From NCBI RefSeq assembly GCF_023091155.1, contig NZ_JAHWXK010000001.1:1984001-2048000 (forward strand): DNA of 64,000 nucleotides. The letters are read 5' to 3'. The notes beneath the pieces were generated by a model. It was given only the letters and a program-made list of their open reading frames with translations. It ran no database searches and had not been told where the DNA came from. Shown here in pieces: positions 50,384 through 54,118 of the stretch. Both the position numbers and the translations under genes were made by a program. Source of the stretch: Microbacterium sufflavum. GTDB lineage: Bacteria > Actinomycetota > Actinomycetes > Actinomycetales > Microbacteriaceae. Each line of letters starts with the position of its first letter. The stretch's first letter is position 1.

Positions 50384-51442
50384 TCAGCCCGCACCGGGTC
50401 GACGCCCGGCTCGGTACTCGCGCGTTATCAGCGGGGAGAGCCGCACCAGGAGCTCTTCACCGACCGTGCCGATGAGTTCGGCCAGGCTCGTCGCGTCGAG
50501 CTCCCCGCGGGCGCCCGGCCCCCACACGGCCACCTCCTCGCCGATCGCCGCCCGCGGCCAGGGGCGCACCACGCTCTCGGTCGGCCCGATCCGCAGCACG
50601 CGTCGGGCGCCGGCGGCCGTTCCGACCTCGAAACAGCCGGCGAGGGTCGAGGGGAGGCCGTCGAGACTGCCGATCCCGATCGTGACGGCCTCGGCGTCCA
50701 CGCGGATCACCGGGGCGAGCAGCGTGGAGGCGAGGGCGATGTCGTCCGGCGGCGGCGCCCCCACCGACCGGATCCCGTACGCGAAGGCCCCGAAGCGCAC
50801 CAGGTCGAAGCGGAACTCGGAGCGGGCGGCGCCCGCGGCGCTGGCAGCCAGATGCCGCACGGTCGGCGTGAGGCCCAGCGCCTCCGCCCGCTGCACCGCC
50901 TCCCGGAACGCGGCTCGCGCCAGGTCGTCGTCGCGGTCGCTCACCTCGGCGATGTGGCTCCAGATGCCCTCGACCCTGATCGCTCCCGCGGCCTCCAGCT
51001 CCGCCGCCCGCCGGACCACCTCGGTCCACTGCTCGGGGCGGATCCCGCTGCGATGCAGACCCGTGTCGATCTTGAGGTGCACGGGCTGCGGGCGACGCTG
51101 GTTCACCTCGACGATACGTTCCAGGTAGTCGGCGTCACCCACCCCGAGGGTGACGCCCGCGCGCACCGCCGCCGCGATCTCGCTCCGGGTCATGGTCACC
51201 CACGCGAAGACCCGCGCGTCGGGGCCGGCGGCGGCGCGCGCGCGCACCGCGGTGGCGCTGTCGAACGCCCCGAACCAGCGCACTCCTTCGGCGGCCGCAG
51301 CCGTGACGACCCGTTCGAGCCCGTGTCCGTACGCGTCGCACTTCACGATCATCATGACCTCGGCGGGCGCGCTCCGGCGCTGCAGTTCGCGGATGTTGGC
51401 GCGCAGCCGACGCAGATCCACGACCAGTCGGGGGAGGGTCAT
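50384..51442 (-). CDS. Alanine racemase homologue with PLP lysine but degenerate C-terminal domain
   Basis: The 352-residue protein has a complete fold-type III TIM barrel. MMIVKCDAYGHG puts the PLP lysine at residue 34. HLKIDTGLHRSG (122-133), RHLAASAA and LVRFGAFAYGIRS (214-226) are the further cofactor contacts; the arginine of the last motif is kept. The C-terminal beta-domain is shortened and changed: the stretch holding the second catalytic base (a Tyr in VGYG/VSYG-type motifs) is absent, and the sequence runs AVTIGIGSLDGLP (252-264). It therefore supplies Lys but probably no Tyr. ATG 51442 overlaps the short racemase by ATGA; an earlier in-frame ATG at 51481 lies inside that gene. Confidence 0.88.
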   Translation of the reverse strand: MTLPRLVVDLRRLRANIRELQRRSAPAEVMMIVKCDAYGHGLERVVTAAAAEGVRWFGAFDSATAVRARAAAGPDARVFAWVTMTRSEIAAAVRAGVTLGVGDADYLERIVEVNQRRPQPVHLKIDTGLHRSGIRPEQWTEVVRRAAELEAAGAIRVEGIWSHIAEVSDRDDDLARAAFREAVQRAEALGLTPTVRHLAASAAGAARSEFRFDLVRFGAFAYGIRSVGAPPPDDIALASTLLAPVIRVDAEAVTIGIGSLDGLPSTLAGCFEVGTAAGARRVLRIGPTESVVRPWPRAAIGEEVAVWGPGARGELDATSLAELIGTVGEELLVRLSPLITREYRAGRRPGAG

Positions 51443-52116
51443 GGTGTCTCCTCTCGCGCGGCGCGCAGCCCGAGCGCGCACACGAGCTCGGCGGCCGTCC
51501 AGCCGGTGATGCGGGTCCAGTCGGCCAGTGCGTGCCGCGCGGGACCGGGCCCGCCGAAGTACACGACCTCCTCACCGTGCCGGATCGGCGCGTGACCGAT
51601 GTCGACGACGCACACGTCCATCGCCACCCGTCCGATGATCGGGAACAGCCGGCCGCGGATCTCGACGTCGGCCTCGTTCCCGAGCGCCCGGGGGATGCCG
51701 TGGCCGAACCCGCCGGTCACGAGCGCCACACGGGTGTCGGTGCCCGCATGGTGCGTGTGGTTGTACGACACCCCTTCGCCCGCCCGCAGCTCCTTGGTGG
51801 AGAGGACGCGCCCGGCGACGCGCATCACGGGCTCCGTGTCCGCACCGGGCCAGCCGAACAGGCGCGCGGGATCGATCGTCGCCGGCTCGTCGCACGGGGT
51901 CAGGCCCGACCGGGCCGCGCTGCGCCCGGCCGAGGCGTCGAAGATCGCGTGGCGGATACCGGCGTCGTGCGCGATCCCCGCCACCCAGGTCAGGCCGTGT
52001 CCCCACGCATCCCGGCGCAGGTCGATCACCGGGACGCCGACGCTCGCCGCCGCCTGACGGTGCGCGTTCGAGGCGAGTGCGGCGCGGGAGAGGCGGGCAC
52101 GGATCAGGGCGTTCAG
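51439..52116 (-). CDS. Short alanine racemase homologue retaining the Tyr domain; CTG start
   Basis: The 225-residue protein is a cut-down racemase. The first 75 residues resemble the barrel start, but the PLP-lysine motif reads DLRRDAWGHG: the lysine position is Arg34 and the Tyr38 equivalent is Trp. Most of the barrel is missing. The C-terminal domain is well kept: AGEGVSYNHTHHAG (112-125) with the catalytic-type Tyr118, FGHGIPRALGN, and GRVAMDVCVVDIG with the Met-Asp pair. Start is inferred as CTG 52116 overlapping the upstream stop in CTGA. This matches the 4-base overlaps of the other operon junctions, and no ATG, GTG or TTG is available nearby. It may be a partner of the full-length homologue. 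Confidence 0.8.
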   Translation of the reverse strand: MNALIRARLSRAALASNAHRQAAASVGVPVIDLRRDAWGHGLTWVAGIAHDAGIRHAIFDASAGRSAARSGLTPCDEPATIDPARLFGWPGADTEPVMRVAGRVLSTKELRAGEGVSYNHTHHAGTDTRVALVTGGFGHGIPRALGNEADVEIRGRLFPIIGRVAMDVCVVDIGHAPIRHGEEVVYFGGPGPARHALADWTRITGWTAAELVCALGLRAAREETP

Positions 52117-53138
52117 AATCCCATCGCCTTCTGGAACCGGGGCCGGTGGCCGGTGCGGATGCCGAGCACGCTCGGCTTCACCTCGTACACTCCCGTGCCC
52201 CAGTTCCCCTCGATGATCACGGGACCCGTCGGGGTGACCGCCACGTCCCATCCGACGTACTGCACCTGCGGCACGCGGCGGGCAGCCCGGTCGATCAGCG
52301 CGATCACCTCGTCGTACAGCGGCAACTGGAAATCGGCGATCCGGTAGCCCGTGTCGGGATGGAATCGGTGGACGTTGCCGTGGGAGTCGTAGCCGTCGCC
52401 GAGGGCCCGCCCGGTGTCCGCGTCGAGCATGGTGTAGAAGCCGCCCCAGTCCATCTGGTCGGCGGCCTGGCCGCGACCGAACTTCTGGGCGATGGACAGG
52501 ATATGCGTCCGATGGCCGTCGAAGAACGCCGTGATTCGCGTGGAGTTTACGGTCCCCGGGCACACCGCCGACAGCGCGTCGTGCTGCACGATGTTCTCCT
52601 CGACGAGCAGCTCGCCGTTCTCCATCAGCCGGTGGTGGAACGCGTCCCAGTCGGATACGTCTGCGCCGTGGTACCGGTGGATCGCATGGCCGGAGCGCCC
52701 GAGCTGCTGCTTGGTGATCAGCGTCTGGTGCCGGTCCGCGAACGAGCGCAGAGCGTCCGCATTGTCGTTGTCCAGCAGCATCCACTCCCGCCCCAACAGG
52801 TCAGAGAACACGCGCACGAACTCCCACTTGTCGTGGAAGATGTGCCGGTAGTCGGCGTGGTCGAACAGGTAGGACAGCCGATTCGACAGCGGATGCGTCA
52901 TCATGGTGCGGCGCTCCGCCGCCGTGAGCATCGCGAAGTCGTAGTCGACGTAGTCCTGGAAGCCGACCTGGTGGAAGGCCGCCTCCCTGAGCATGTCGAC
53001 GAGCACCGCAACCGTGCGCTGATCATGGTGCGTCGCCACCGCACGCGCACGGCGCATCAACGAACCCACGTCGATGCGCCGTGCGCGACCCAGCAGATAG
53101 CGGAGGCGGATCACGCCGGCGTGAACGGTCGAGCTCAC
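52113..53138 (-). CDS. ATP-grasp protein of the sugar-transfer-associated type
   Basis: The 341-residue protein has a C-terminal ATP-grasp domain. HQTLITKQQLGRSGHAIH is the lysine-containing nucleotide loop, ELLVEENIVQHDAL carries the adenine-contacting Glu, VNSTRITAFFDGH is the central beta-strand, and VGWDVAVTPTGPVIIEGN ends in the metal-binding Glu-Gly-Asn. This pattern belongs to the ATP-grasp family called sugar-transfer-associated or alpha-L-glutamate-ligase-related. Such enzymes join an acyl phosphate to an amine. Because it lies between a hydroxylase and two racemase-like genes, I infer that it ligates an unusual amino acid to a cell-wall precursor or small peptide. It overlaps its neighbours by GTGA and CTGA. 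Confidence 0.87.
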   Translation of the reverse strand: MSSTVHAGVIRLRYLLGRARRIDVGSLMRRARAVATHHDQRTVAVLVDMLREAAFHQVGFQDYVDYDFAMLTAAERRTMMTHPLSNRLSYLFDHADYRHIFHDKWEFVRVFSDLLGREWMLLDNDNADALRSFADRHQTLITKQQLGRSGHAIHRYHGADVSDWDAFHHRLMENGELLVEENIVQHDALSAVCPGTVNSTRITAFFDGHRTHILSIAQKFGRGQAADQMDWGGFYTMLDADTGRALGDGYDSHGNVHRFHPDTGYRIADFQLPLYDEVIALIDRAARRVPQVQYVGWDVAVTPTGPVIIEGNWGTGVYEVKPSVLGIRTGHRPRFQKAMGF

Positions 53139-54118
53139 TGCCCGGCGGGGTCGTTCTCGACGACGCGGGGGCGACGGGTGCGGCGTCCGGCCGACGCGCC
53201 GGGGTCACCCGTGATGATGACGCGCTGGAGCCAGCGGTCGGTGCCGTCGTAGCGCGGCTCGAAGCTGGTCCGGGCGTGGAGCACGCGACGGTTGTCGAAC
53301 AGCAGCAGGTCGCCCGCCTTCAGATTCACGGCGATACGGGCGGCGTCCGCCGCGTCGTGGAAGCGCCGCAGCGCGGCGGCCGCCTCCTCGTCGCCCTCGA
53401 CGGCGGCCGCGCAGTCCATGTCCATGCGCACGAAGCGCTCGCCGTCCTCGCCGTACAGGACCGGTCCACGGACCCCGTCCTCGGGTCGTCCCGTGCCGCC
53501 CGATGCCTTGTCGATGCCGTGCAGGAATCGGGGCTCGCGCAGGATCCGCTCGTCTTCCGGGCTCAGGACCACGCGGTCGATCGGAGCGAGGGCCGTGTCG
53601 GCGTTCACATCGCCGCGCACGCACAGCAGGCCCACGTAGTGCGGGTGGGCGTCGTCGAACGCGTCCTCCGTGTGCCAGTCGAGCAAGCCGCGGCTGCCCG
53701 TGCCGACCGCGTCGTATTCGTGGCCCTTCACCGGCGCGACGTTCTGGATCTGGGCGCCGGCGTGCTGGCGCGCGAACGCGAAGATCTCCCCCGCGGTTCC
53801 GGCGAGGGCGAGCAGCGTGGCCTCCGTGACGGGGTCCCGGTCCTGATTCTGGAACTCGAGCTGCCACCCCTCCGGGGTGCGCCCCATCTGCTCCTGGTCC
53901 ACGGTGAAGCCGGTGAAGAGGACTGCGCCGTCGGGGACGTCGGCGGCCGCGAAGCGCCGGATCACCGCGACGGTGTCGGGGTCCTCCGCGGCGAGTGCGG
54001 CGGTCGCCGACGCCAGCAGGTCGTCGAAGGCCGCGTCGTCGCGGTAGATGCCGCGGCGCCCCACGGCGAGGGCGGAAAGGGCGTCGAGTGCCGCGGGAGC
54101 GAGGGCGTGCGTGATCAT
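53135..54118 (-). CDS. Fe(II)/2-oxoglutarate amino-acid beta-hydroxylase (AsnO/VioC-like)
   Basis: The 327-residue enzyme belongs to the clavaminate-synthase-like dioxygenases. The iron triad is His149-x-Glu151 (LLDWHTEDAFDDAHPHYVGL) and His281 (NRRVLHARTSF). Arg295 lies 14 residues after His281, as in VioC, and should bind 2-oxoglutarate. Enzymes of this group hydroxylate the beta-carbon of free Asn, Arg or enduracididine. The HTE form and length fit, but the substrate is not given. GGGAG lies ahead of ATG 54118. The gene starts the operon with the ATP-grasp and racemase-like genes, so 3-hydroxylation of an amino acid used by that pathway is likely. Confidence 0.9.
   Translation of the reverse strand: MITHALAPAALDALSALAVGRRGIYRDDAAFDDLLASATAALAAEDPDTVAVIRRFAAADVPDGAVLFTGFTVDQEQMGRTPEGWQLEFQNQDRDPVTEATLLALAGTAGEIFAFARQHAGAQIQNVAPVKGHEYDAVGTGSRGLLDWHTEDAFDDAHPHYVGLLCVRGDVNADTALAPIDRVVLSPEDERILREPRFLHGIDKASGGTGRPEDGVRGPVLYGEDGERFVRMDMDCAAAVEGDEEAAAALRRFHDAADAARIAVNLKAGDLLLFDNRRVLHARTSFEPRYDGTDRWLQRVIITGDPGASAGRRTRRPRVVENDPAGQ

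Follow-up and report, generated by a model that had tools for sequence, protein, structure and literature searches.

A complementary pair of broken alanine racemase homologues in Microbacterium sufflavum, predicted to form one heterodimeric active site

Introduction

Alanine racemases of the Alr/DadX type (PF01168 plus PF00842, TIGR00492) are fold type III pyridoxal 5'-phosphate (PLP) enzymes. Known members are homodimers with two active sites, each built from the N-domain of one monomer together with the C-domain of its partner, and a single gene encodes both the PLP lysine and the catalytic tyrosine. The broad-specificity and lysine racemases Bsr, Bar and Lyr act on basic amino acids, as PDB entries 4beu, 4dyj and 4dza also name them, and carry the lysine and tyrosine intact in one chain. 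In another PLP family, the alpha-oxoamine synthases, serine palmitoyltransferase SPT1/SPT2 (LCB1/LCB2) is a heterodimer among homodimers; SPT1 lacks the PLP lysine and a single active site is presumed (PMC6148460, excerpt). Here we analyzed a stretch of 64,000 nt from Microbacterium sufflavum (GCF_023091155.1, NZ_JAHWXK010000001.1, positions 1,984,001-2,048,000), hereafter the window, to which all coordinates are relative. On its minus strand lie two adjacent genes for alanine racemase homologues, a long half with the lysine but no tyrosine (K+Y-, 50384..51442) and a short half with the tyrosine but no lysine (K-Y+, 51439..52116).

Taking the explanation as a whole, with its substrate proposal, we consider it very probable that these proteins are obligate partners in a heterodimer of the alanine racemase fold, which has a single composite active site and arose from duplicated racemases.

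Results

The catalytic residues are divided between two adjacent genes

The long protein (352 aa, ATG at 51442) has a full-length alanine racemase barrel with the PLP lysine K34 (codon 51341..51343) within VKCDAYGHG, and a C-terminal domain without the catalytic tyrosine segment. It matched Pfam Ala_racemase_N with 175.8 bits and Ala_racemase_C with 22.9 bits, below the cut-off of 25. Compared with the intact alr of the same genome, a segment of about 19 residues spanning the catalytic tyrosine is absent and GRxAMD is lost, as shown on an M. sufflavum copy (L141) that is 99% identical; the short protein has both. The latter has Arg (R34, codon 52015..52017) at the expected lysine position, the catalytic tyrosine Y118 (codon 51763..51765) in SYN, and GRVAMD in an intact C-terminal domain, and Ala_racemase_C was its sole Pfam match (106.2 bits). 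The short-gene stop and the long-gene start share ATGA (51439..51442, minus strand). Each chain folded alone with AlphaFold2 gave a confident model matching one alanine racemase subunit, and the fold of barrel plus C-terminal beta domain was recovered. A first-pass annotation of this DNA had described these two residue patterns and the ATGA coupling, all of which held; it had also stated that the short protein lost most of its barrel, and the barrel is indeed reduced, but three strand-helix units remain in the model. The curated alr model TIGR00492 (NCBIfam, cut-off 168 bits) was reached by neither protein (long 127.4, short 93.3). Because each falls below this cut-off and is without a defining residue, neither is to be filed alone as alanine racemase; together they should work like one.

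The complementary pattern is invariant among the best Microbacterium hits

Alignments of Microbacterium proteins comprised 150 distinct long and 149 distinct short sequences, drawn from the best 30 loci and the best 120 (long) or 119 (short) database hits; the short alignment left out P0004, a truncated database copy of the window's own short protein. A named-locus set consisted of the best 80 of 193 loci with organism names. The residue labels Tyr43, Arg136, His166, Met312 and Asp313 are those of the usual numbering. Lys39, Tyr265', Tyr284', Arg219, Arg309 and His168 are numbered as in PMC3245724 (excerpt). Results showed that the PLP lysine in the V-K-x-x-A-Y-G-H-G segment was present in 150/150 long and 0/149 short proteins, and the catalytic Tyr265' of the C-terminal domain in 0/150 long and 149/149 short ones, so that only jointly does the pair have both. 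All 150 long proteins also kept the equivalents of Tyr43, Arg136, His166 and Arg219, with the tyrosine column empty in 149 rows and occupied by Asp in one. All 149 short proteins kept Arg309, Met312 and Asp313 beside the tyrosine, and their lysine column held Arg in 139 rows and a gap in three. The same Lys/Tyr pattern was found in 80/80 named loci, with lysine-column gaps in one long and five short rows.

Constraint was mirrored between the two families. Columns with at least 95% of one residue made up 54/238 of the barrel and 23/131 of the C-terminal domain in the long family, and 2/238 and 30/131, respectively, in the short family. Both genes were adjacent in 30/30 loci of the first survey of the genus and lay on one strand in 80/80 named loci, where the matched segments were at most 400 bases apart in 79 and 412 in one.

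Chance is excluded as a cause because the same pattern recurs in the 150 long and 149 short proteins, in 80/80 named loci and in all 73 non-intact two-unit loci of the family survey described below. Sequencing error or pseudogene decay was rejected on the recurrence of the pattern in many genomes and the lack of internal stop codons in the matches listed from a 59-genome search. The missing tyrosine is no alignment artefact, given the gap of about 19 residues and the column composition above. A mobile-element gene was likewise rejected, since most named copies occupy one conserved chromosomal locus.

Distribution of split, intact and single forms

Among 59 Microbacterium genomes searched, the window's own included, a short-type match (E <=5e-35) was found in 48 and none in 11, one of which was only 81% complete. 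Two pairs are present in the genome of the window, one being the window copy and the other lying at C1:2976351, in addition to the separate intact alr. In a sample of 246 genomes across the class, hits below E 1e-40 were confined to Microbacterium among the matches listed, weaker ones being uninspected.

The family survey covered 199 Microbacteriaceae genomes; loci were fetched for tandem-looking or unusual matches, and 110 loci from 102 genomes were typed by state. Complementary pairs accounted for 73 of them (68 genomes, 29 genera) and pairs of two intact copies for 23 (23 genomes, 9 genera); the rest were 13 intact genes standing singly and a lone lysine half (L135) at a contig end. None of the 96 two-unit loci was a mismatched pair, and among the analyzed loci no genome combined a complementary with an intact tandem pair; this absence is qualified by 7 of 16 intact-tandem genomes that, when searched again, gave a third, uninspected match elsewhere. 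In 113 family genomes every long-profile match overlapped a C-terminal match or sat in a pair or fusion, barring short fragments, as judged from two match tables compared by eye rather than by gene-by-gene alignment, with lower-scoring matches of other family genomes not listed. Thus neither half was seen widely alone, and the co-occurrence that the first-pass annotation had asked about was found in the best 30 genus loci and the best 80 of 193 named ones.

In intact tandem pairs of three genera (g34, g58, g62), one copy had Asn for Asp in GRxAMD (L085, L087, L091, L092, L094, L095, L096, L099, L105), possibly an early change of specificity.

Natural fusions join complementary halves

Both parts occurred in one open frame, lysine part first, in ten genomes, belonging to genera g48 (G115, G188, G243, G286), g97 (G164, G221, G265) and g75 (G142, G204, G254). 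In g75 the broken C-terminal domain is succeeded by another one, after which the frame continues into TsaE (L248-L250); the lysine-column letters of these second parts are meaningless, as the parts contain no barrel. Every match to either profile lay inside the fused frame in eight of the ten genomes (not G164 and G265). In these eight, the curated alr model gave strong matches in the fused frame, two whole frames exceeding the cut-off, and a weak further match outside it occurred once each in G142 and G254 (28.4 and 20 bits). No D-amino acid transaminase scored over cut-off in the eight genomes, although just 1 of 14 control genomes had such a score with this model. Peptidoglycan requires D-alanine, and because these genomes have no other substantial Alr match, the fusions are the clearest hint that an enzyme split in this way can be catalytically active; the split-site enzyme probably makes D-alanine there. 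The natural single-frame fusions strongly support the heterodimer. A protein search returned no fused proteins among the best 120 of 1434 hits, the longest of which had 394 aa.

Less reduced partners were also present: the lysine-less partner was about 319-385 residues long in nine loci and near 215-270 in most. In genus g37 (L253, L254), one intact racemase shares an open frame with a TsaE-like stretch.

Split loci occupy two chromosomal places

The tsaE neighbourhood contained all 23 intact tandems, 9 of the 13 genes that are single and intact, and 13 split loci, the latter being adjacent genes in the order long-short in genus g101 and the fusions of g48, g97 and g75. Of the other 60 split loci, 59 had at least two flanks of a second place, the main or core locus, marked by a GyrB/ParE-type topoisomerase, DUF7455 and sigma-70 genes together with either GatD/MurT or the combination of an ATP-grasp and a CofE-like protein. 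The exception was the window copy, which had just the ATP-grasp. TsaE and DUF7455 were checked by Pfam, and the GatD, MurT and CofE-like matches were above Pfam and below NCBIfam cut-offs. Within the stretch examined, an ATP-grasp accompanied 61/80 named loci, GatD/MurT 16/80 and neither of them 3/80. At the main locus the pair adjoins lipid II-modifying genes.

An ATP-grasp plus CofE-like protein replaces GatD/MurT at some core loci (L032 10118-11884; L033 10362-12379), an apparent non-orthologous swap. Core loci retrieved from seven pair-less genomes contained the sigma factor, the CofE-like gene, one or two ATP-grasps and the topoisomerase gene but not the pair; two of the pair-less genomes (L232, L233) had tandem ATP-grasp genes there. 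An ATP-grasp match was found in all 11 pair-less Microbacterium genomes.

Since split pairs stand at two places, either the splitting happened repeatedly or a pair changed its location. Trees were built with at most 2-3 rows per genus and state, and the barrel tree was retested without 11 of its 105 rows. It required 5-6 state changes and rejected one clade for all 63 Lys-only rows (p 7e-5); without the fusions, a single Lys-only clade was rejected only weakly (p 0.037). The C-domain tree required only two changes, but its 133 columns left many open forks and it was poorly resolved.

The window copy belongs to an accessory cassette

The window copy forms a cassette of four genes on the minus strand, in head-to-tail order a TauD-type Fe/2-oxoglutarate oxygenase (53135..54118), a PF14397 ATP-grasp protein (52113..53138), the short half and the long half, with a 4-base overlap at each junction. 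Such cassettes made up 3/80 named loci, in M. sufflavum (99% identical), M. schleiferi FXH-192 and Microbacterium sp. 67-17 (L141-L143). The oxygenase was nearest to GntD/VioC-like amino acid beta-hydroxylases, with scores below their NCBIfam cut-offs, and may itself be such a hydroxylase.

The start of the short gene appears to be non-standard. No ATG, GTG or TTG precedes its conserved N-terminus at short distance, and its frame overlaps the ATP-grasp stop at CTGA (52113-52116); we therefore infer initiation at CTG 52116, which gives 225 aa, or by coupled re-initiation. Database protein P0004, otherwise near-identical, has 196 aa, 29 fewer. Taking the start nearest the stop, the short/long overlap was 4 bases in 24/30 loci.

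Discussion

A single composite site as the favoured explanation

In the proposed heterodimer, the long subunit would give the barrel, PLP, Lys34 and the Arg and His residues that hold cofactor and substrate, and the short subunit would reach across the dimer interface with Tyr118 and the GRxAMD part of the site, with racemisation by the usual two-base Lys/Tyr mechanism. The mirror-image second site would be dead, having lost its lysine in the short subunit and its tyrosine in the long one, and neither homodimer would be able to assemble a complete site. The rebuilding of one site by a 1:1 heterodimer, as envisaged from the first reading of the DNA, is thus supported at the level of sequence by complementarity, co-occurrence and natural fusions, and the case for an obligate heterodimer is strong. 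The pair would go back to homodimeric racemases that were duplicated and became dependent on each other through complementary losses; some lineages joined them into one chain.

The long protein could instead be active alone as a homodimer, with another base replacing the tyrosine and the short protein acting as regulator or stabiliser. It is not truncated, its predicted fold is good and all checked barrel residues are kept, but a mere regulator would not need the Tyr, Arg309, Met312 and Asp313 that the short protein keeps in 149/149 rows, the fusions join complementary halves and hold all substantial Alr matches in eight genomes, and the only long half found without a short partner stood at a contig end; we regard this explanation as improbable. 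Slightly less probable still is that both are pseudoenzymes, for example PLP carriers or scaffolds for cell-wall genes, devoid of racemase activity. Each does lack an essential residue and scores below the curated cut-off, yet the tested catalytic positions are jointly kept and invariant over 80-150 rows, and eight genomes have neither another substantial Alr match nor a D-amino acid transaminase over cut-off. A weightier rival, to which we give a real but clearly less than even chance, accepts the heterodimer and takes it for a redundant alanine racemase rather than a D-diamino acid racemase. The fused forms stand at the alr-tsaE place and probably make D-alanine, so that alanine suits the split fold; on the other side, Microbacterium keeps a separate intact alr, pair presence agrees with the wall diamino acid in the few species checked, and no split pair was seen among the analyzed loci of the 23 intact-tandem genomes, subject to the third matches noted above.

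A possible link to type B cell walls

For the window's pair, a non-alanine substrate, already suspected in the first-pass annotation, is favoured because the genome has a separate intact alr. At the main locus, the product would most probably be a D-amino acid of the type B cross-bridge, D-ornithine in this species, and would be used together with the lipid II-modifying enzymes encoded nearby; our best guess is a D-diamino acid racemase, with about an even chance of being right. D-ornithine is reported for pair-bearing M. sufflavum, for the cluster V type strains and for three of four cluster IV species (PMC10757982, excerpt); these D-ornithine species include pair-bearing M. oxydans, M. paraoxydans, M. 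hydrocarbonoxydans, M. maritypicum, M. hydrothermale and M. proteolyticum. As exceptions, that paper names M. gubbeenense and M. enclense with L-Lys and M. radiodurans with D-Orn. A table in PMC10978784 (excerpt) gives ornithine in M. schleiferi and lysine in M. invictum. Ornithine is also given for M. betulae, whose long protein was among the database hits (PMC11319209, excerpt), and the wall of Rhodoluna lacicola, of another genus of the family, contains D-diaminobutyrate (PMC4156110, excerpt). Pair-less genomes included M. lacticum (G037), M. invictum (G013), Candidatus (Ca.) M. phytovorans (G008), Microbacterium sp. Root180 (G012) and G048, whose Alr is 99.7% identical to that of M. flavum. 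Pair presence agrees with ornithine versus lysine walls in the few species checked, none of which contradicts the link.

Several points weigh against parts of this explanation. Loci were chosen by score or tandem look, so the counts are no random sample. The pairwise distances of the long and short families correlate (r 0.82; 0/500 permutations as high), but such a correlation would also rise from shared species descent alone. The barrel and C-domain trees disagree, and no number of origins is claimed. The pair stands equally beside GatD/MurT, so that no single ligase goes with it. D-alanine is the probable product of the fused forms at the alr-tsaE place, and the split alone therefore implies no new substrate. 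The substrate link rests on few named species, the pair-less ones being M. invictum (Lys) and M. lacticum (L-Lys). Moreover, L-ornithine rather than D-ornithine is reported in Microbacterium strain ET2, which may or may not carry the pair (PMC10978784, excerpt).

Joining all elements, we tentatively sketch, at rather less than even probability, a recurrent complementary breakdown of duplicated racemases in Microbacteriaceae at two places, probably repeated, leading to an obligate single-site heterodimer that was fused in some lineages and became the sole alanine racemase in some genera. The version at the topoisomerase-sigma locus would be the D-ornithine/D-diaminobutyrate racemase of type B peptidoglycan, and the window copy, with its VioC-like hydroxylase and ATP-grasp, would lead to a hydroxylated variant.

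Comparison with known systems

If correct, this is an alanine racemase split by nature, two genes each encoding part of an active site of the kind that a homodimer shares, and the pair becomes a candidate for making the D-diamino acid characteristic of many type B cell walls. With intact tandems and full-length, truncated and fused versions all surviving within one family, the origin of obligate heteromers becomes directly testable. Many such genes are labelled simply 'alanine racemase' in databases, a label to be read with caution.

Among the titles and abstract openings of open-access PMC literature, no report of a heterodimeric or split alanine racemase was found, and no title on type B walls, D-ornithine or MurT/GatD concerned a split racemase. 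The pair resembles Alr/DadX in fold, PLP lysine, catalytic tyrosine and the sharing of a site between the N-domain of one chain and the C-domain of the other, and differs in having two proteins and one site lost. It shares its fold with Bsr, Bar and Lyr, whose entries are among the structural matches, but these are not nearest to it by sequence. Within the literature portions covered, the nearest described arrangement is serine palmitoyltransferase, likewise a PLP heterodimer with one subunit devoid of the PLP lysine. Unlike SPT1/SPT2, the pair belongs to a different PLP family, one of its subunits has also lost most of the barrel, and intact, truncated and fused relatives of the split racemase survive in one bacterial family.
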